A stretch of DNA of 38,646 nucleotides from a virus. The notes beneath the pieces were generated by a model. That model saw only the letters and a program-made list of their open reading frames with translations, had not been told where the DNA came from and ran no database searches. The stretch spans positions 1 through 38,646 of the IMG/VR virus record IMGVR_UViG_3300048773_000035. One strand, written 5' to 3'. Of the stretch, positions 4,900-38,176 are shown piece after piece (positions within the stretch are counted from its first letter, which is position 1; each line of letters begins with the position of its first letter). The translations under genes and the position numbers were made by a program.

Positions 4900-5229
4900 T
4901 TAAATCTCCTTTTCCAACGTGATAAAATCCGGGTGCGCGCCATTGATCCGCATGCCGTAGTGCAGAAGCACTTTCATGCTATCCGTAGATCCGAACGCGC
5001 TCGGCACAACGGACCCCAGAAGCCGCTTACAGCCCGCGGCCCTGCCGATCTCGCATACGCAGTCCGCTAGATCGCGCGCGATCCCCTTTCCGCACTCTTC
5101 CGGGGTGACGAAAATATCCCGCAAATAGATGTCCGAGCCGTTGACCCTGTAGGTCGCAAACCCGTTTTCATTCTCGACCGTCTCGAAGCCTTCCCGGACC
5201 AAAACATACTGTGCGTAAAGAGATTTCAT
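4900..5229 (-). CDS. GNAT-fold acetyltransferase-like protein in the tail module (109 aa)
   Basis: A longer reading frame exists upstream, but the ATG at 5229 forms an ATGA overlap with the nozzle-gene stop and begins a compact GNAT domain, so I chose it. The acetyl-CoA loop is seen as VTPEECGKGIARDL (residues about 41-54), with a later strand GCKRLLGSVVPS. GNAT enzymes transfer acetyl groups from acetyl-CoA. A GNAT-like protein placed between tail and ejection genes recalls T7 gp13, a core protein reported to be GNAT-like. It may therefore act in virion assembly rather than catalysis. Confidence 0.8.
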   Translation of the reverse strand: MKSLYAQYVLVREGFETVENENGFATYRVNGSDIYLRDIFVTPEECGKGIARDLADCVCEIGRAAGCKRLLGSVVPSAFGSTDSMKVLLHYGMRINGAHPDFITLEKEI

Positions 5230-8200
5230 GAGGCCCCCTGACTGAAGGGCAGCGGTACGTAGCCCTTCTTTTGCCCGAACACGAGATTGAGTCCGGAAAC
5301 GGATAGACCCGCGCCTGGCGGGACGCCAAAGCTCGGGTCGTAAATTTCCTGGAACTGGATTTGAAACGCCTGGCAGCGCTGTTGAGTGAGATAAATTTTC
5401 CACTGCTCAAGCTGCCCTGGTCCGCCGTAAGGCGATTGTCCACCGTAAGGCCCGCTTCCGTAAGCGCCCGCGTAGTTGTTGGGAGAGATCAATGGGAACT
5501 GAGTTGCGTACGGGTTGTAGTCGTAGGCGATGCCTAACTGAATCTTGTGCGGACTCAGGTACTGGCCCAAGAAGTAGAACCAGTAGGCGCGCTGGTAACC
5601 CTGAAGCCCCGAGGGGCTGATCCAACCCGTGGTGAATTGCATCAGAACCGGCGTCGATCCATCCAGGTAAGCGTCCGGAGTTTCCTGAAAGACCAGTCCG
5701 GTCGGGCTAATGTAGGTGTGAAGCCCTTGGTAAAGCGTGCTCGAAACGGAGTTGTTCGTGTGCACCGACCACTTGTCGAAGAAATAATCGTACATGAGCC
5801 GGATCCCGCTATCGAGATCAAACCTGACTTGATTAGTTCCTGGGATCGAAACCGCGCTCAGGATGTTGGCGCCTAGGGTGAGCCCCTCAACCGCATCCCC
5901 GATGTATCGGGTACCGAGATCCCGGCCCAAAAGCCAGATCTGGTTTCCAGCGGCCGAGGCGAACTCAAACATCAGCCCGTTCGGCTGAAAGACGATCGAG
6001 GCCTGATTACTGCACCCGACCATGGAGGTGATGAAGGTGGGCTGGCTGTATTGAGAATTTGAGCCCGTGTTATCCGGACCCGTTCCGTTGATGTAGTATA
6101 GGGCCGTGGGCTTAAACAGGATGGCCTTGTCATCCATGGCGGCCCCGCAAGCTAGCGCTCCGGTCGGGCCCTGGGCACCTAAGGATGGGGCCACGTAAAG
6201 GGTGAGGAGATCAGATAGCTCGACCGGAGTGCCCTCGATGATCTGCTTAGAGAAACCAACTAGGTTTCTGTCTTCGGAATAGATCCCAAAGAGCCTGTCG
6301 TCAAAGGTGAAGGTGCTGACAAACGACGGGCCCCCGGTGTCTTCAACCACTCCGCCCGTGGTGTAAAGAAGCTGGTTTCCGGAAATCGAGGCATCCGCAA
6401 GTGTATCGGTATAGCTCCACGAGTCGGCCGTGGTCGAATTGAGAAGCGGAGTAGCGACCGACTGAACCAGGAACCACTCGGGCTGGTTTGTGCTGTATCG
6501 ATAGATGTTGTGTTTGACGTTCTGTTTATAGGTCAGGCGCAGGTTCGGACCGGCGAGAGTGACCGTGTTGGTGGCGGTTCCTGAGCCCGAGAGATCGACC
6601 AATACCGGGATAGATCCTGCCGAGTAGAAGATGTTTCCCCGGCTGTCGGTCCATGACTCTACGACCTGATACCAATATTTGTAGGCGCCCATGAACCCGC
6701 CAGTAGAGGCGTTCGCCGTGGATTCAACGGAGTCTGGATAGAGGAAAAAGCCCTGCTCAGTGGTCTGGGTGCCGTCGTATCCCCAAAGAAAGCCGCCCGA
6801 GATGTTGAGGTTTCCGGCCATTTCTGTCGCCGTGATCGTCGCAGCGCCACCAATGGTGAAGGTGGCCTGATTGATACCGGTCTGCGAATAAATACCGCCA
6901 ACGACTGAGGTCCCGGCGGCGTTCGCATTTGAGATCGCTTGAATCAGATCCTTGTAAAGATAGCCTACGCTTGCGGTTGAATTGGTTGTGTTGACGCTGA
7001 CCGAAGGCAGCCCGTTGGCCAAGTATCCGCCACCGTTCTCGTAGGCGACTTCCGCGACCACGTTCCCATTCGCTCCGTCGATCAAGAAATAGGTGGGCTG
7101 ATAGGGCGATGAGTAAGCCGAGAGGAAGTAATTGACCCCACCCAGCGCGAACGCCTTGGACGCAAGCCCCACAGAGCGAATCAATGTGGATGCGGTGCCA
7201 AGCGTTCCCCCCACCGTGAGCGTGTTGGTCTTGATCAGATTCGAGTGAATGCCAGAATCATAACTGTACGTGTTGGACACCTCGTAGAAGAGGGTTAGGA
7301 CATTTGCAGCCGCAACCGACGTAAGATTGAGCACCGTTCCGCTTGCGATGATTTCAGTTGCCGCAAGAATGGAGTTCAAGGCCGAACTTACGGCCACGGC
7401 ATAGCCAACCGTTCCGGACAGGTTGTAGTAAGAGGCCCAGATGGTGGCGCTCGGCGCGTCCACGGCCACGCTAAACATTGTTCCCTGGTGACTGGAGTCA
7501 ACTACATGTGCTGAAGAAAGCGAAAGCGTGGACGTGAGAAACGCCATCTTGACGCCGCTTGAGCTTGCGCCGTTCCACGCGAGATAAAGGGAGTTGTTAT
7601 AGACTACGCCGTCAAAGGCAACCGTGGAGCTTGGAGCGATCGATGTGGAAATGACCGCACCCGAGCCTGGGATAAGCGTTGAAATTGGGATCTGAATATA
7701 TTTGAGGTGATTGGTGCTCGAGGTGATGTAAACGACAATGAAATAGCCACCCAGAACGAAGGTGCGGGGGAATCCATATGGCCCCGCCACGTCTGCGTCT
7801 GAAATGGTCTGGGCTTCTAGAAGGGTCTGGCCAGTGGTCGAGTCGAAAACCGCGTATCTGAATTGCTTGGCGGCAAGACTCCCTGGATTCTGATCGGCCC
7901 AAGCCATGAGCAATAGCCCAGTGGGCGAGACGACCGAATCGACTTGGGATTGGTTGGTTGCGGCCCTGACCACTGGGAGCGCTGAGAGATTGCAGGGGTA
8001 GAAATTGCCAAGGTCCGTCCAAACCTCAGACCCTGCCGAATAGGCTTGGACCTGAGTCCCAATTGCCGTAAGCGTTCCGGCCAGTGTCGTGACGTATTCG
8101 GCTTGCACCGAAGGAAGCGCGCCGAAGCCATTGCGCTTGGTCATGCGCTTTCCGGTGGAAAACACCATGTTCTGAAGCGAAAGGAAGCGACCAAAATCGA

Positions 8201-8270
8201 GCTGGAACGGATCTGTTTTTAGATCCAGTGCCTGCGCGAAGTTGATGGATGCCGTTTGCTTCTGGATCAT
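5226..8270 (-). CDS. Large tail nozzle / tail-tip beta-propeller-like protein (1014 aa)
   Basis: This is the largest complete gene. The N-terminus (INFAQALDLKTDPFQL, then SLQNMVF and KRNGFGAL) looks like the opening of P22 gp10-type packaged-DNA stabilisation or nozzle proteins. The remainder is rich in repeated short beta segments, consistent with a propeller. The C-terminus has a Gly/Tyr-rich loop (YGSGPYGGQSPYGG). Its position, after fibre genes and before ejection genes, fits the lower tail of a short-tailed phage. It abuts the 381-aa gene and overlaps the GNAT start. The general role is likely; the exact homologue is unproven. Confidence 0.8.
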   Translation of the reverse strand: MIQKQTASINFAQALDLKTDPFQLDFGRFLSLQNMVFSTGKRMTKRNGFGALPSVQAEYVTTLAGTLTAIGTQVQAYSAGSEVWTDLGNFYPCNLSALPVVRAATNQSQVDSVVSPTGLLLMAWADQNPGSLAAKQFRYAVFDSTTGQTLLEAQTISDADVAGPYGFPRTFVLGGYFIVVYITSSTNHLKYIQIPISTLIPGSGAVISTSIAPSSTVAFDGVVYNNSLYLAWNGASSSGVKMAFLTSTLSLSSAHVVDSSHQGTMFSVAVDAPSATIWASYYNLSGTVGYAVAVSSALNSILAATEIIASGTVLNLTSVAAANVLTLFYEVSNTYSYDSGIHSNLIKTNTLTVGGTLGTASTLIRSVGLASKAFALGGVNYFLSAYSSPYQPTYFLIDGANGNVVAEVAYENGGGYLANGLPSVSVNTTNSTASVGYLYKDLIQAISNANAAGTSVVGGIYSQTGINQATFTIGGAATITATEMAGNLNISGGFLWGYDGTQTTEQGFFLYPDSVESTANASTGGFMGAYKYWYQVVESWTDSRGNIFYSAGSIPVLVDLSGSGTATNTVTLAGPNLRLTYKQNVKHNIYRYSTNQPEWFLVQSVATPLLNSTTADSWSYTDTLADASISGNQLLYTTGGVVEDTGGPSFVSTFTFDDRLFGIYSEDRNLVGFSKQIIEGTPVELSDLLTLYVAPSLGAQGPTGALACGAAMDDKAILFKPTALYYINGTGPDNTGSNSQYSQPTFITSMVGCSNQASIVFQPNGLMFEFASAAGNQIWLLGRDLGTRYIGDAVEGLTLGANILSAVSIPGTNQVRFDLDSGIRLMYDYFFDKWSVHTNNSVSSTLYQGLHTYISPTGLVFQETPDAYLDGSTPVLMQFTTGWISPSGLQGYQRAYWFYFLGQYLSPHKIQLGIAYDYNPYATQFPLISPNNYAGAYGSGPYGGQSPYGGPGQLEQWKIYLTQQRCQAFQIQFQEIYDPSFGVPPGAGLSVSGLNLVFGQKKGYVPLPFSQGAS

Positions 8271-9416
8271 CTAGATCTCGTAGACGTACATTGTCCCGGA
8301 GAGCGATATTTCTGAGTTTGCGTTTCCGGTTGAGATACTAATCGTATAGGTGTGCGTTCCGGCCGAAGAAGGCGCAACCAAACAGCTGAGCGAACTTGCT
8401 GGAATTTTTTGATTCCAAGCCGCCGCGGCAGCGTTTTGCGTGAAACCCTGTGAAAAAGAGCAAACGACACTGGATCCATCAGATATTAATATGCCCCCAT
8501 TGATCCCAAGGCATCCCGAGCTCAAGCAAAGGACCGCGATTGATCCGGCTGAAAACCCCAGAAATACTGGACGGCCCGCTGTGGTAAGGGTCACCGATCC
8601 AGAGACGGTACTGGATCCACCGCTTGCTGTTCCACTGACCGTACTAGAGGCCACGCCGCCCAAGGGTGCTGGATTTGAAAATGTCTTAGTTGCCAGCATC
8701 CCCTGCGTGATGCCTTGAGTGGTTGAGATGGGCGCAGTAATGTTTCCGCTCGTATCCATCGTCATAAAACTCTGGGACCCCGGAAGACTTGCCGGAAGAG
8801 TCAGGGCAAAACCAGTGGCGAGCGATGCTGGGGCTTCGATCGCAATGTAATTTCCAGACGGCGACGGGTAAGAGCCTGGATATCGAATAATTAGAGTTCC
8901 AGCATCCATATTTGCGGCCGTAGATGCCGCCTGTTGCCACACGAAAGTACCACTTGCGGATACGAACGACGCAGAGGCTGGAGAAGTAAGATTGGAGATG
9001 GATCCAGGGGACCCATTCACACCACCGCCCGATGTGATTTGGACGACGTTTCCGTTTCCGTCTTTGTAATATAAATCAACTCCCTTTGTGTAAGTCGAAT
9101 ATCCACTGGTTGGGTCGCCCGACTGAGCCGTGTAGACTTCTGCACCAAGCCCGGTGATAAAGTTTCCATTGAATCCAAGGTTACTCGTGATGTTCATCCC
9201 CGATGGGGTTATTGGCACTCCCTTGCCAGGAGAATGGTCGTGCGCATCGATCAATGTCAGGGAGGCGTTAATGTCGTTGGCCCATTGGGGCCCGAGTTCT
9301 TGACCCGGGGCCGGGACCGTCAGGCCCATGTTAGGGCTTGTGTAATAAGTCGCAGCCACCGCTATAAACGGAAGCGAGTAAAGAAGTAGGAACGTAAAAA
9401 ACTTCCGGAGCTTCAT
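8271..9416 (-). CDS. Fibre-like structural protein with N-terminal signal peptide (381 aa)
   Basis: The first ~22 residues form a clear Sec-type signal: basic KLRK, hydrophobic core FFTFLLLYSLPFIAV, then an AVAA cleavage-like site. The rest is Ser/Thr/Gly-rich beta structure of tail-fibre or appendage type (GVPITPSGMNITSNLGFNGN; SISTGNANSEISLSGTMYVY). The start overlaps the preceding stop as TGATG. Virion parts normally assemble in the cytoplasm, so an export signal is unexpected. Two fibre genes near 35-38 kb share this feature. The target and function are not known. Confidence 0.8.
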   Translation of the reverse strand: MKLRKFFTFLLLYSLPFIAVAATYYTSPNMGLTVPAPGQELGPQWANDINASLTLIDAHDHSPGKGVPITPSGMNITSNLGFNGNFITGLGAEVYTAQSGDPTSGYSTYTKGVDLYYKDGNGNVVQITSGGGVNGSPGSISNLTSPASASFVSASGTFVWQQAASTAANMDAGTLIIRYPGSYPSPSGNYIAIEAPASLATGFALTLPASLPGSQSFMTMDTSGNITAPISTTQGITQGMLATKTFSNPAPLGGVASSTVSGTASGGSSTVSGSVTLTTAGRPVFLGFSAGSIAVLCLSSGCLGINGGILISDGSSVVCSFSQGFTQNAAAAAWNQKIPASSLSCLVAPSSAGTHTYTISISTGNANSEISLSGTMYVYEI

Positions 9417-9712
9417 CAGAATACCTCCAAATCAATCACCACGGCGGCGCTTGAGGTAAGTAGAAGGGTTAAGGAGGGATGAGAGTTTGCATCCTGAGTG
9501 TCGTAGAAGGTCGCGGATGCCCGACAACGCACGACCCGCCAGCCGGTCAGGTTCCGGCCAAGACCATGATTGATTATGTTCGATCCACTGGCGAGCGACA
9601 CGTTCGCTAGAATCGACGTATTCAAAGAAGGATTTCCTAGCAGGGGGTCCAGGGCCGACTTCCATTTCGTCTGCATCTGGCTGATGGTGAGGCCGAATGG
9701 AAGTTTTGCCAT
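9416..9712 (-). CDS. Small virion-associated beta protein (98 aa)
   Basis: A short protein with a compact C-terminal beta module (INHGLGRNLTGWRVVRCRAS, then a TLLLTSSAAVVIDLEVF tail). I have the impression of similar modules as small proteins in podovirus structural clusters. ATG follows directly after the upstream stop (TGAATG), and its own stop overlaps the signal-peptide fibre start, so the three genes are probably co-translated. It may be a partner or chaperone of the following fibre protein, which is inference. Confidence 0.75.
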   Translation of the reverse strand: MAKLPFGLTISQMQTKWKSALDPLLGNPSLNTSILANVSLASGSNIINHGLGRNLTGWRVVRCRASATFYDTQDANSHPSLTLLLTSSAAVVIDLEVF

Positions 9713-12096: not shown

Positions 12097-12558
12097 TTAT
12101 GGATGGCGGTAGCGGCGAAGCTGCTTATGCTTTGCTCGATACCTGGCTCTTTCCTGAGCGTTTTTACATAGCTTGCAACGTCTCGCCCCGTTGTATCCGT
12201 TGTCAGAAATGATGAGATTTTTGTCCGAATAGGGGTGACCGCTTGGGCAGCTTTTTTTTGCCGCATTTTTATATGCCAGCGTGGTTTTGGCGCGATGGGT
12301 ATTCACGCGAGTCGTTACCTGCTCCAGATGGTCTGGGTTTACGCAGGACTTATTTTCGCAAAGGTGGTCAATCTCGAATCCGCGGCGAATGGGCTCTTTG
12401 GCCAACTCGTACGCCACCCGGTGGGCTTTTTTGGACTTTCCATCGAAGCAGAAAATCCCATAACCCTTTGCGTCTCTGTAGCCATTCCAAACCCAGCAGG
12501 AATCTTCCTTTTTTACTTTCGACCAAAATCTATCGGTTATTTTCATAAACCGGGGCAT
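12097..12558 (-). CDS. HNH endonuclease, free-standing homing-type (153 aa)
   Basis: The HNH core is visible as FEIDHLCENKSCVNPDHLEQ (residues about 61-80): the D-H pair, the Cys pair that holds the fold, and the NPDHL helix. A C-terminal CPSGHPY...CKLC segment suggests a second zinc site before a basic tail. These enzymes nick or cut DNA and often spread as homing genes between phage genes. A GTG further upstream lies inside a terminator stem, so I start at ATG 12558 (MPRFMKITDRFW); ATG 12546 is the alternative. No good ribosome binding site is visible, which suggests low expression. Confidence 0.85.
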   Translation of the reverse strand: MPRFMKITDRFWSKVKKEDSCWVWNGYRDAKGYGIFCFDGKSKKAHRVAYELAKEPIRRGFEIDHLCENKSCVNPDHLEQVTTRVNTHRAKTTLAYKNAAKKSCPSGHPYSDKNLIISDNGYNGARRCKLCKNAQERARYRAKHKQLRRYRHP

Positions 12559-12567
12559 AACAAATAA

Positions 12568-12607
12568 AATAGGGGTGTTCCACGAAAAACGTGATAACAC
12601 CCCTATT
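12568..12607 (-). terminator. Hairpin terminator after the capsid gene
   Basis: A perfect 12-base-pair stem (AATAGGGGTGTT with AACACCCCTATT) with an extra CACG/CGTG inner stem and an A5 loop. On the minus strand it is followed by TTTTATTTG. It lies 15 bases beyond the capsid stop and would end the capsid message before the HNH gene. Confidence 0.75.
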
Positions 12608-33021: not shown

Positions 33022-33264
33022 TCATTCGCCTTGATGACAAACCTCTTCATGAGCCTTGAACTCTGGCCCATGAAAGCAAACAAGGTCATGGGAATTCACC
33101 CAGAGTAAATCAGAGGCTTCCCCGGTGGCAGCATTGAAACATGAAAAAACATCGGCCTCAGTCAGTGACGGGACACAGTTATCCAGCGGCACGAAATGCC
33201 GCGCGGGTGCGGATGCGCAGCCCATTTCAAGAACCAGTAAGAGCAGCGAGATCCTTTTGCGCAA
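33022..33264 (-). CDS. Small signal-bearing lipoprotein-like lysis protein, o-spanin candidate (80 aa)
   Basis: TTG start with GGAGG nine bases ahead. MRKRISLLLLVLEMGCASAP is a short lipoprotein-type signal, with Cys16 as possible lipid site, though EMGC is not the classic lipobox. The mature part has four Cys. The start lies inside the preceding gene by 38 bases, as often seen for outer-membrane spanins. It is the last gene of the lysis cassette. No inner-membrane spanin partner was found. Confidence 0.55.
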   Translation of the reverse strand: MRKRISLLLLVLEMGCASAPARHFVPLDNCVPSLTEADVFSCFNAATGEASDLLWVNSHDLVCFHGPEFKAHEEVCHQGE

Positions 33265-33810: not shown

Positions 33811-34199
33811 TCAACATCCGGGAGGAGTTCGAAGTGATCGCCGTCGCCAAGCGTCTTGAAAGTTCCGCCCCAAATAATATTCGGGTAGTCGAGCTTATTT
33901 GTGGCCGAGATCGCAGCGAAGAAAAGTGGGGGCCAAAGGGCTTGCCCCTGAACGATTTCGAAGAGGTCCAATGCCCGGGCTGGTATTTTGTTGTGCGCGG
34001 ACTGCGGGAAGTGAAGATTGGTTTTTCCATCTTCAAATGCAGCTTCTTGTGCGGCCTGATCACGATAAGCCCAGGAAACGTGCGCGTCGGGATGTTTGGG
34101 CTTTACCGCCGCCTTAAACCAGGCGACCAAGTCAGGATGTGCTGTCTTCAGCTTTTCTTCACAAAGAGGGCATGATGGGTCTGACGTGTGGTGAATCAC
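33807..34199 (-). CDS. Endolysin, M15-type peptidase (130 aa)
   Basis: GTG start in a GTGA overlap. The M15 zinc site is read as SAHNKIPARALDLF (residues about 67-80, S-x-H-x(6)-A-x-D) with the last His in GDGDHFELLP. VSWAYRDQAAQEAAFEDGKT is the conserved region before it. It cleaves peptide links in peptidoglycan and has no signal peptide, so it needs the nearby holin. The N-terminal CPLC pair is unusual. Confidence 0.85.
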   Translation of the reverse strand: MIHHTSDPSCPLCEEKLKTAHPDLVAWFKAAVKPKHPDAHVSWAYRDQAAQEAAFEDGKTNLHFPQSAHNKIPARALDLFEIVQGQALWPPLFFAAISATNKLDYPNIIWGGTFKTLGDGDHFELLPDVE

Positions 34200-34636
34200 G
34201 TGAAGTGGCGAGTCCTTTTCTTTTCGGCCAAGGCCAATTGCGCAGCTTCGGTGAGTTCTTTCTTGTGCGGCATAGTTTCTGCGAATTCTTCCTCTGGCGC
34301 GGGTTCAATGGGATCGGGACTATTCACTTCTGGTGTGGCGCCCGTGGAATAGCTCGATATTTCGTCTTGCTCGCCACGCCGATAAAGGGCCTTGGCAAGC
34401 ATCTTCTCGCGGTCGTCTGTTTCTGGAGCGCCCACGGCTTCCGGCGTAGCCTGGGATTCTTCTGGGTTTGCGGTTTCGGCCACCCTTTTCGAGTTCCGCG
34501 CACTCGCCAACGCCGCCGCGATGGCCTGATTTTGCGTCCGCCCGGATTTGATCATTTCTCGGATGTTTGATGAAATAATTTGTTTTGAGTGGCCTTGCAT
34601 GATTTCCATAGGGCTCCTTAGTGGATCTTTCAGCAT
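34196..34636 (-). CDS. Small virion/late protein with SKxxxNI-type helical motif (146 aa)
   Basis: The N-terminus has HSKQIISSNIREMIKSGRTQ then NQAIAAALASAR, a helical motif I recall from many small phage proteins. The remainder is acidic and Pro/Glu-rich, ending in a basic KKRTRHFT. TAATG overlap with the fibre gene and GTGA with the endolysin. Function unknown. Confidence 0.7.
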   Translation of the reverse strand: MLKDPLRSPMEIMQGHSKQIISSNIREMIKSGRTQNQAIAAALASARNSKRVAETANPEESQATPEAVGAPETDDREKMLAKALYRRGEQDEISSYSTGATPEVNSPDPIEPAPEEEFAETMPHKKELTEAAQLALAEKKRTRHFT

Positions 34637-35898
34637 TAGAAGTGCCCAACGCAGTGGTAATCCAGTAGCGTACTTGCAGCGAATGCCAGCGTTGCGTTGA
34701 AGGTGACCGTAGTTGCCGTGGGCACGGCCTGCACGCTGATAATGGCGCTCTGGTCATTGACGAAGCAATGCGGGGCATTTGTCCATGCCGGGGTTGTTGC
34801 GAAGGTGAGGAGGCAGGATGTTGCCGTTCCGCCCGTGCCCACCGTGATCGTTCCGGCCGTGTTATTCCCCACAACGCTTGGGCTTGTCCCGCAACTCGAA
34901 ACCGTGGGCGCGACGCCATGGAAGTTCACTTGGCCGTTTTGGTTGATCCGCATCGCTTCGGTAAGCGTTCCCGCCGTGTTCTGGAATAGAAACACCTCGC
35001 TTTGCTCAGACCCGCTTGTAGCTACAACCTGGCGCGTTCCAACGCCGCCCAAAAGATTGGACGAAGATCCGGCTGTTGCCCTCAGGGCTAGCGTATTAGC
35101 CGTTGTACTCTTGTTCTGATATACGTCCAGCGGAAGGGCGTTGTAGGAGGCGCCCCCTAAGGCCGTGAACGATGAAAGCGCCGTGATTGCCCCATCGGCT
35201 GCGCGATTAGTAAACATGATCGGCCAAGGAAGTAGCCCGACACCGGGGTAGCTTGGACCATCCGCAGCAATCTCAATCCCACCCACGTAGCTATGCGATC
35301 CAGCCGTGTCGGAAATGAAAAGTGTTCCGCTCGTAAAAGGACTGCCATCAATGAGCAGGCCACCAGCAGTTCCATAATCAAGGGCGATGGTTCTGGAGTT
35401 GTTTTGGTTGCCCAATACGACTCCATTAGCCAAACCCTGTTGCTTGACATAAAGGACATCGGGTTGTTGCGCATTCGTTCCGGCCGTGATCCCGCTTGGC
35501 GCAATGACCTGGGTGAATACCACGACGCCCGTGGACCCAAGCACGCCCGTCGCCCCGGTTGCACCGCTCGCGCCCGTCGCCCCGGTTGCACCGCTCGCGC
35601 CCGTCGCCCCGGTTGCACCGCTCGCGCCCGTCGCCCCGGTTGCACCGCTCGCGCCCGTCGCCCCGGTTGCACCTGTCGCGCCAGTAGACCCACCGCCGCC
35701 GCCGCCGCATGAAGAAGATGGCTCCCACTGAAGGTCCGCGCCCACGTAAACTAGGCATTCTGCGTTCGTTGGAGGAGTGGTAGAGATCGGTACGCCCTGA
35801 AGAAGGGTCGCGTTTAACCCTATGTCATCGTACCCGCCGAAGGTGGCTCCGAAGGAACAAACCGACAAAGCCGCGACGATCGCAAGAAGTCTCCTCAT
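34636..35898 (-). CDS. Collagen-like fibre protein with signal peptide (420 aa)
   Basis: [20 protein letters not shown] is a Sec-type signal. A short beta domain ([14 protein letters not shown]) follows, then a Gly-rich hinge, then collagen-like Gly-x-y repeats (GATGATGAS units, about residues 70-120). The C-terminal 300 residues are beta-rich, ending with a small Cys-containing head ([18 protein letters not shown]). Trimeric collagen-like shafts are known in phage fibres. It is ATGA-coupled to a small beta protein, repeating the arrangement upstream. Confidence 0.8.
35544..35673 (-). repeat. 27-bp tandem repeat in the collagen-like shaft
   Basis: Four exact 27-base units and a fifth partial one, each coding nine residues (Gly-x-y times three). 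Identity at the DNA level suggests recent expansion and easy length change. Confidence 0.9.
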
Positions 35899-36236
35899 GG
35901 GCCCTTAGACTCCGCGTTGACGGTGATGGTCCCGGTACTCGAGGAACTGTTTGCATAGTAAAGCCTGGCAAACTGGTACATAGCCGTCGGGACGTTCCAT
36001 ATGAAGTCCCCGGCTGACCCCGCGATGGCTTGCGGCGTTCCGGTGATGTCAGACCAAGTTACGCCGTCGATAGACGCCTGAATCTTCACTATTCCGTTGA
36101 TTCCACTGGTCCATATGGCCTGCATCGCGTAGCCGTACATCTGGTACAGCGACCACGCCGGGGTGAATGCGTCGGCGCTTGCTATTGTCAGGGCCGCGAA
36201 GGGCTGATTATTAGGCCCATTGATTGCTGTTTTCAT
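35895..36236 (-). CDS. Small beta-sandwich-like virion protein, paralogue 2 (113 aa)
   Basis: [20 protein letters not shown] then [10 protein letters not shown] aligns with the 115-aa protein at 37829 ([20 protein letters not shown]), and the ends match too ([16 protein letters not shown] versus [15 protein letters not shown]). It precedes a collagen-like fibre gene with ATGA overlap, as its paralogue does. It may cap or anchor that fibre. Function inferred from pairing. Confidence 0.75.
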
Positions 36237-36257: not shown

Positions 36258-37832
36258 TCACTGGTAAAATTCCTCGACGATGATGACGCCAGAACCACCA
36301 CTGCCGCCCGCGAAAGAGCCACCACCGGAAGCGACCCCTCCAGCCCCTACGGTGTAAGTAAAGGTCTGTCCAGCGGTAGGATAGATGATCGCTTCAAGGT
36401 AACCTCCAGCGCCACCACCTCCCGCTCCAGCTAAGGTATTTCCTCCGCCAGCTCCAGTGCCGCCTGATCCCGTATTTGCAATGGCAGATGTACCATTTGA
36501 TGAATCTAGTCCACCCGCTGGTGCACCCCCAAAAGGAGTACTGGCACCAGCACCACCGCTACCAGCTCCGACCGAAACACCCGCAGTAGAGCCGCCTTGA
36601 CCGCCCTGAAGAGCGACAAGGTTAAGAGTCGTACTGCTAGTAGTTACAGTAGCTGTGCCTCCCACTCCACCAATGGCTCCAGCTGAATTCGTAGTAGCTG
36701 CTCCGCCGACCCCTCCATTTGCAGTTAGAAGAGAAATTCCGAAAGTTGTGTTCCCTCCGGTTGTTCCTGTGCCCGAAGCTCCTGCCCCAGAGTTTCCGCC
36801 GCCACCGCCTCCACCGACCATCCGATCGCGGAGGTAGAGAGGAGCAGGACCTGTGGGCGTCGTATAAGTAGCGGTAGGTACATTGGCCGAAAAGGTGACG
36901 CTGGAAGTTCCAGAACCAGTCGCACGGGAAAGCGTCCCACTTGACGTAGGAGCACTAGCTCCAGATAGGTAAAACACTTGCCCAGTGTTTGCTGAAAGTG
37001 CACCTTGGACGGTGTAGGTATTTCCGTTGTTTGTATAGGTGTCGCCGACTGCGCACGTCGTCGAAGTAGAAATGGTGAAGAGATACCCAGTAGTAGAACC
37101 AGTAGCGTCGAATTGATGAACAGTCGGAGCGATGAGCGCTTGGAACGTAGGGGTCGCAGCACTCCCGCTCTGCGGCCCGGAGAGGAAGGTTCTCGCCGTC
37201 TGTGTATTTAGAGACGCAGTAACGGTTCCGCTGGTCGTAACCGCGGAGCTCGGGGTGCTCGAGAGCACGGTTCCATCACCCGTGAATGTAACGGAAGTCA
37301 CAGTTCCGCCAGCACCCGTCGCGCCGGTGGCACCCGCTGCGCCATTGGTGCCGTTTGTACCATTGGTTCCTGACGCACCCGTCGCGCCGGCACTCCCGTT
37401 AGACCCGCTTGCACCGGTTGCGCCGGCGGACCCGGCCCCAGTCGCACCTGTCACTCCGCTTGCGCCGGTCACCCCCGACGCGCCATTGGATCCGTTGCTT
37501 CCGGTCGCACCCGTCGCTCCGCTTGCGCCGGTCACCCCCGACGCGCCATTGGATCCGTTGCTTCCGGTCGCACCCGTCGCTCCGGTTGTACCTGTTGCGC
37601 CAGTTGGACCGGATAACACCCCCCAGGCCGAACCATTCCAAACGTATTCACCGTAAGCGGTTGTCTCTATGCGCGCATCGCCAGGAGAATTCCCAGTGGC
37701 CGGAAGCGCACCAACGGAAGACACCGGGGACTTCCAATGAATGTCTCCGAAAGGCGAGTATCCCCCCACCGCTTGCATTGCTCCGAAAGAAGAGAGGGCC
37801 AGGGCGATGATTGCGGCTGAGATTAATCTCAT
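36258..37832 (-). CDS. Large collagen-like fibre protein with signal peptide (524 aa)
   Basis: [20 protein letters not shown] is a Sec-type signal with the same SFGA...GGY pattern as the 420-aa fibre. A small binding-like domain ([11 protein letters not shown]) is followed by about 110 residues of collagen-like repeats ([19 protein letters not shown]). The middle is beta-rich. The C-terminal ~190 residues are extremely Gly-rich ([20 protein letters not shown]) and end in [14 protein letters not shown]-like beta strands, a glycine-rich receptor-binding head type. ATGA overlap upstream. Confidence 0.8.
37455..37580 (-). repeat. 63-bp direct repeat in the large fibre shaft
   Basis: Two adjacent near-identical 63-base units coding 21 residues of Gly-x-y each. 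Indicates duplication within the shaft. Confidence 0.85.
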
Positions 37833-38176
37833 CTTGTTTTACCCAAAGAGGTCACGGTCAAATTCCCGGCCCCTGTCGCATTCGTGTAAACGAGCTCAAG
37901 CCACTTCATCCCGTGACCAAAAAGAGGAATCAGACACCCACCCGATGATCCTGCCGGCTGAGTCGGAACGGAAACGCCAAAAGCGTAAAAGTTCACTCCA
38001 TCGAGCGAGCCCAAAACGGTGATGACGCCGGCCAGTGATCCGCCCCATGTCGCCTGAAAGGTGAAGGTTTCAAAATCGGTCACCTTCACCGGCCCTGCCG
38101 TGACCGGAGAGGTCCCGGAAACGGCGGCATTAAAAAGGGGCGTCTGAGTGTTATCGCAAAAACGGTAGCTCGACAT
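37829..38176 (-). CDS. Small beta-sandwich-like virion protein, paralogue 1 (115 aa)
   Basis: Opens [20 protein letters not shown] with a beta-rich body ([20 protein letters not shown]). It is paralogous to the 113-aa protein at 35895. It is the first gene after late-motif copy D, with GAGG four bases before ATG, and is ATGA-coupled to the large fibre. Fibre anchoring or capping is inferred. Confidence 0.75.

Follow-up and report, generated by a model that had tools for sequence, protein, structure and literature searches.

Sec signal peptides repeatedly gained by tail-fibre proteins suggest fibre export in a group of tailed phages

Introduction

Why should a fibre-like protein encoded in the structural module of a tailed phage begin with what looks like a Sec signal peptide? 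Tailed-phage assembly is, in the textbook account, cytoplasmic. Signal peptides are found on pIII and pVIII of the filamentous phages, virion proteins assembled in the membrane during extrusion; the DNA analysed here, in contrast, belongs to a tailed phage and includes terminase and head genes. It is an IMG/VR virus record of 38,646 bases, here called the window, with its structural module on the minus strand. An initial annotation had read a Sec signal (MKLRKFF, a hydrophobic core and an AVAA site) on a fibre-like protein, had attributed signals to two collagen-like fibres at 34636 and 36258, and had proposed export, membrane tethering or an unknown assembly route.

Results

The genome and its relatives

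The module encodes a terminase (Pfam match), a 642-aa portal-like protein that received no name from the libraries searched, a head protein with a weak match in PHROG, and an adaptor-like protein whose match to the SU10 adaptor lies just under the cut-off. When the ends of the record were joined, no continuous ORF crossed them, and no terminal repeat was found, so a small part of the genome is probably missing from the record. A search for cultured relatives of the fibre, portal, hub and P0003 found none, and the terminase reached at most 38%. The fibre N-domain occurs in one Burkholderiales MAG contig and in none of the 299 other genomes of that order; a binning artefact is therefore possible, and Burkholderiales was set aside as the host.

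Some neighbouring genes deserve a separate mention. An HNH-endonuclease-like gene lies beside the head gene (window 12097-12600, minus), as do similar genes in contigs L116 (6692-7207) and L206 (9572-10051), and a small lipoprotein-like ORF (window 33022-33264, minus; MRKRISLLLLVLEMGCASAP), lacking a Pfam or NCBIfam match, is possibly an outer spanin. The related genome G002 encodes an apparent papain-type cysteine protease whose signal resembles that of a lipoprotein (L013:11797-12645, minus), and its head gene (L013:18031-19652) looks interrupted, with 'LLHNPE.RLKARS' remnants, possibly by an intron or intervening sequence.

The signal peptide of P0001

The locus comprises the following features:
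5226..8270, minus: P0004, 1014-aa hub-like structural protein, directly 3' of P0001, synteny conserved
8271..9416, minus: P0001, 381-aa fibre-like protein (from translation, orthologues and AlphaFold)
9354..9416, minus: predicted signal peptide of P0001, residues 1-21, MKLRKFFTFLLLYSLPFIAVA cut before A (from the filter; missing in unsignalled orthologues)
9416..9712, minus: 98-aa protein, its stop overlapping the P0001 ATG as TGATG
9424..9428, minus: Shine-Dalgarno GGAGG of P0001, 7 nt 5' of the ATG

The interval 8271-9416 was correctly given in the initial annotation, and the gene lies on the minus strand, the plus-strand frame there containing 11 stops. Translation starts at MKLRKFF, a start backed by the GGAGG and the TGATG overlap, and the N-terminus reads MKLRKFFTFLLLYSLPFIAVAATYYTSPNM. 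The n-region carries a charge of +3 and is followed by a hydrophobic core and an AVA-A cleavage site, so that the predicted processed protein begins ATYYTSPNMGLTVPAPGQELGPQWANDINASLTLIDAHDHSPGK. Behind the Sec signal peptide, P0001 consists of an SPNM N-domain at about residues 22-80, then a beta shaft, and finally a beta-sandwich tip at the C-terminus (255-380).

Signals were tested with a crude SPase-I filter (basic n-region, hydrophobic core, small residues at -3/-1), whose reference set was nine E. coli signals. P0001 scores comparably to OmpA, DsbA and PelB on this filter, and all three fibre genes of the window pass it. Because 3.5% of arbitrary small ORFs pass as well, a lone hit is weak, and the case rests on comparison. 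The features of a Sec/SPase I substrate are clear in P0001 and weaker at the cleavage site in the other two fibres. A lipoprotein (SPase II) reading was rejected for P0001 and P0003, whose signals have no Cys and do not match the lipobox [LVI][ASTVI][GAS]C, and is unlikely for P0002, where LSVC, with Val at -1, fails the lipobox.

An AlphaFold model of P0001 built from 73 sequences (mean pLDDT 80) leaves residues 1-17 below 50, whereas the mature part folds: after residue 17 it shows a small N-domain with a helix at 44-57, a beta shaft and a beta-rich C-terminal region (255-380). As this is a monomer model of a likely trimer, it should not be pressed further. Compared with PDB structures, it gave nothing at E 0.001 or better; in a viral structure library, phage tail-fibre and collagen-like proteins are among its matches, with low TM-scores. 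The SPNM family profile had no match among PDB sequences, and the PDB sequence matches of P0001, nearly all antibody chains, were set aside as chance. The predicted Sec signal of P0001, as first annotated, is confirmed by the passing of three fibres from the same genome, by the comparative evidence presented below and by the modelled disorder of residues 1-17.

The two collagen-like fibres

The second fibre locus contains:
34196..34636, minus: 146-aa protein 'IISSNIREMIKSGR', a syntenic marker after the fibres
34636..35898, minus: P0002, collagen-like fibre with a likely signal (residues 1-17, nt 35848-35898)
35895..36236, minus: 113-aa protein before P0002, with a weak DUF6385 match below cut-off
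36258..37832, minus: P0003, collagen-like fibre with a Gly-rich tip and a fibre N-domain to which its likely signal (residues 1-17, nt 37782-37832) is joined
37829..38176, minus: 115-aa protein before P0003; in sister phages, too, the large fibre has a 115-aa protein before it

P0002 and P0003 have basic n-regions and hydrophobic cores, with Gly at -1; at the alternative site, position -3 is Phe. These sub-optimal cleavage sites make their signals less clear than that of P0001; what had been proposed for both fibres therefore holds as likely, their N-termini having the character of signals and passing the filter.

P0003 lies where the large fibre lies in the sister phages G012:C129 and G013 (MSTFVWPPSGGGG..., MASFTWPPTGTG...), after the 115-aa protein and before a 'ISSNVREMMKSGR'-type protein, and the region in which it aligns with the G012 fibre (38% identity, E 1.2e-12) takes in the Gly-rich tip. 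The mature N-terminus of P0003 matches the extreme N-terminus of two unsignalled fibres, L261 (47%) and L262 (40%); since these begin at that point, the signal once more takes the place of the starting Met of a fibre domain. The PHROG tail-fibre matches of both collagen-like proteins rest largely on the collagen repeats. The DNA of the three signals of the window is not clearly alike, 'SFGA' being shared by P0002 and P0003, and a common origin of the three is unsupported.

The SPNM fibre family

P0001 sits in the structural operon and has fibre orthologues in relatives, in a conserved order of adaptor, 98-aa protein, fibre and hub; the 98-aa protein is directly 5' of the SPNM fibre, without exception in the close relatives examined. 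The syntenic orthologue in genome G001 shares 37% identity with P0001 over residues 29-251, and in G001, G002 and G003 the orthologue has the domain as its very N-terminus (MSTILSNISL and MSSPNMNL). From synteny and homology, we infer that P0001, P0002 and P0003 are virion parts.

Searching IMG/VR with the N-domain yielded 334 relatives, and the best 80 of these were retained. Further members came from another search that started from signalled fibres, from earlier loci and from one genome match, for a total of 122 distinct domain sequences. In this set, built from the best 80 of 334 and later additions, about 117 of the 122 fibres begin at the domain without a signal, although they share with P0001 the SPNM N-domain and the adaptor/98-aa/hub setting of podovirus-type tail fibres in IMG/VR. 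The window and four contigs make up the five signalled cases; the four are, with cut sites assigned by reading the sequences:
L018: MKLFIRLLFLTLWLLAPKAAA cut before ENYTLSPNM
L052: MFSSKRTYCALFLIAVGLGGIIYA cut before QVTTSPNM
L053: MKLAALFLLLSTAAYA cut before ANYTTSPNM
L079: MIFKRITLFAILTTALACVPFKVLA cut before NGETVSPNM

In all five, the cut falls 4-5 residues before SPNM, and the commonest spacing from Met to SPNM in unsignalled members is likewise 4-5 residues. As the mature protein has the same length ahead of SPNM as most unsignalled relatives, the product would be an ordinary fibre made outside the cytoplasm. Signalled fibres do not have a higher Cys content than unsignalled ones (p = 0.27), and an argument for export from disulfides was dropped on that ground. 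The signalled fibre of L052 (L052:2989-4137) has a Cys-rich tip, 'SCGSGQILTGGGC...WQC...YAICC' (TGGGC...YAICC), absent from the other family members compared.

A leaky signal of dual fate, by which part of the protein would fold in the cytoplasm and be built into virions and the remainder be exported for a second job, would reconcile the virion-type N-domain with the signal. We consider it improbable, since a search of the window between the P0001 signal and the domain saw no alternative start with a ribosome site and the unsignalled relatives are simply without a signal.

A second signalled fibre family

In two sister phages, G015 and G016, a different fibre with a signal was found, whose mature form starts GLPPTT. 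Its family (GLPPTT...FPNFTGTH) is signalled in 12 of 12 contigs (L249-L260), with about ten distinct N-termini; the query included the signal and so favours signalled matches, several of which cover mainly the mature part. Two of these signals were missed by the strict filter and are signals by eye. The genes lie within structural regions, and at least two types of phage are represented: in some contigs (L253, L254 and L259) the major head protein belongs to another family, phrog_14242, so the trait extends beyond a single type of phage. The SPNM fibre of G015 and G016 is unsignalled, and this pairing with a signalled fibre implies that export need not mean attachment to the virion. Most fibre-like genes of 20 control genomes have no signal. 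One further genome, G005, encodes a collagen-like PA14 lipoprotein (L029:13728-14396, minus; MKTVIVILALGLMGC cut before ADD...).

Could the hydrophobic segment remain on the protein, anchoring the fibre in the inner membrane or persisting uncleaved in the virion as an assembly tether or a contact with the target membrane? The hydrophobic stretch is real, and the cleavage sites of P0002 and P0003 are sub-optimal. However, an AxA-type site abuts the domain in five of five SPNM cases, and the GLPPTT signals, too, end in an A-type site, for which a tether would have no need. Uncleaved tethering, one of the routes first proposed, thus becomes quite unlikely, while export is well supported by signals that are repeated, variable in sequence and exact in position.

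Chance, with a few hydrophobic codons in front of the domain mimicking a signal, might be suspected from the filter background, which is near 5/122. We regard it as highly improbable: unsignalled members have no extension at all (in L106 there is an upstream open frame, yet the gene has its own start at the domain and no signal-like extension), all five clear N-terminal extensions of the SPNM family are signals, three of them with a ribosome-site match, and the GLPPTT fibres are signalled throughout. Moreover, the window and L053, sisters in the fibre tree with 62% identity, have signals that have diverged strongly in sequence and length, yet both are still signals.

Repeated gain of the signal

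The fibre tree requires four changes of signal state, at least two of them forced by well-supported branches. In the hub tree, which includes four signalled rows because the L053 contig ends before the hub, there are four changes, at least three forced; in the adaptor tree, all five changes are forced. The trees were built quickly and judged by one support measure only, and they place neighbours differently, a sign of gene exchange; the number of gains is therefore approximate, and what can safely be stated is that there were several. The forced changes in the trees of the flanking genes indicate, as far as such trees show, that the signal was gained several separate times at the same spot in related phages.

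Discussion

In this study, we have described predicted Sec signals on all three visible fibres of a tailed phage, and it is very probable, judging from their sequences, that P0001, P0002 and P0003 are exported by Sec and cleaved. We propose that the P0001 tail fibre gained a cleavable signal and that both collagen-like fibres likewise carry one; the fibres would be expressed from the late operon, passed by SecYEG to the periplasm, cut by signal peptidase I and trimerised there, and would attach to the tail hub once lysis brings them together with the virions. To export a component of the virion ahead of assembly is costly if that component has no way to rejoin. Tailspikes and fibres are added to finished particles in extracts of P22 and T4, which makes joining at lysis plausible. 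Periplasmic folding and late joining are favoured because every visible fibre of the window is signalled, with no candidate for an unexported one in that genome, and because P0001 keeps its ordinary domain and place. For P0001, this whole reading, from gained signal to hub attachment, stands just short of an even chance; attachment of the fibres to virions after lysis is put forward tentatively, and that a whole group of tailed phages completes its virions outside the cytoplasm at or after lysis, by a Sec route that has arisen several times, is a possibility that we offer with greater reserve.

The main rival is use off the virion, as adhesins or decoys on the lysogen or the dying cell, where the proteins might alter host-cell sticking, or bind the receptor and so block superinfection or re-adsorption of progeny. 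Such a role would fit the integrase gene of the window, the G015 and G016 genomes, which keep an unexported fibre beside the exported one, and collagen-like segments resembling secreted bacterial adhesins, far below cut-off. There are also precedents. The MAT fibres of Bdellovibrio bacteriovorus are secreted trimers that resemble phage tail fibres, made with a signal peptide and ending in adhesive tips that vary; they are encoded by chromosomal genes of the predator and have a conserved beta-rich N-domain of about 130 aa and, in 13 of 21, an S74 tip (PMC10769870). In streptococcal prophages, the tail protein PblB acts as a surface adhesin; the pneumococcal NTUH-P15 form, with a role in adhesion, has a predicted signal, while that of S. 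mitis is released by phage lysis and is drawn without one, as presented in that source (PMC4508584). We nevertheless hold off-virion use to be less likely for the window, which it would leave without any visible unexported fibre; P0001 retains the N-domain of an ordinary fibre and its place between adaptor and hub, and no surface anchor was seen.

Secreted phage-like fibres on bacteria, and one prophage tail protein with a predicted signal, are thus already known from these two reports. As described there, a MAT resembles our fibres in having a signal peptide on a tail-fibre-like protein and works like an exported phage fibre. The window genes, in contrast, lie in a phage structural operon, and the SPNM domain is the fibre N-terminus in other phages. 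No S74 tip (PF13884) was found in the window, and MAT membership was not assigned on that basis, the tip not being universal among MATs. The PblB phage differs in being a Gram-positive siphovirus, and repeated gain of a signal is not described for PblB in the report cited. In the open literature, most subscription journals lying outside its scope, we found no account of repeated Sec-signal gain on structural-operon tail fibres.

All together, our results suggest that some phages send fibres through the cell membrane rather than building only inside the cell. That Sec signals were joined to fibre N-domains several times over, and always at the exact boundary, would mean that selection favours fibre export in some phages, with either virions completed outside the cytoplasm or receptor-binding proteins put to use in secreted form, as adhesins or decoys. 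The finding may also have a bearing on the origin of bacterial secreted phage-like fibres such as MATs.
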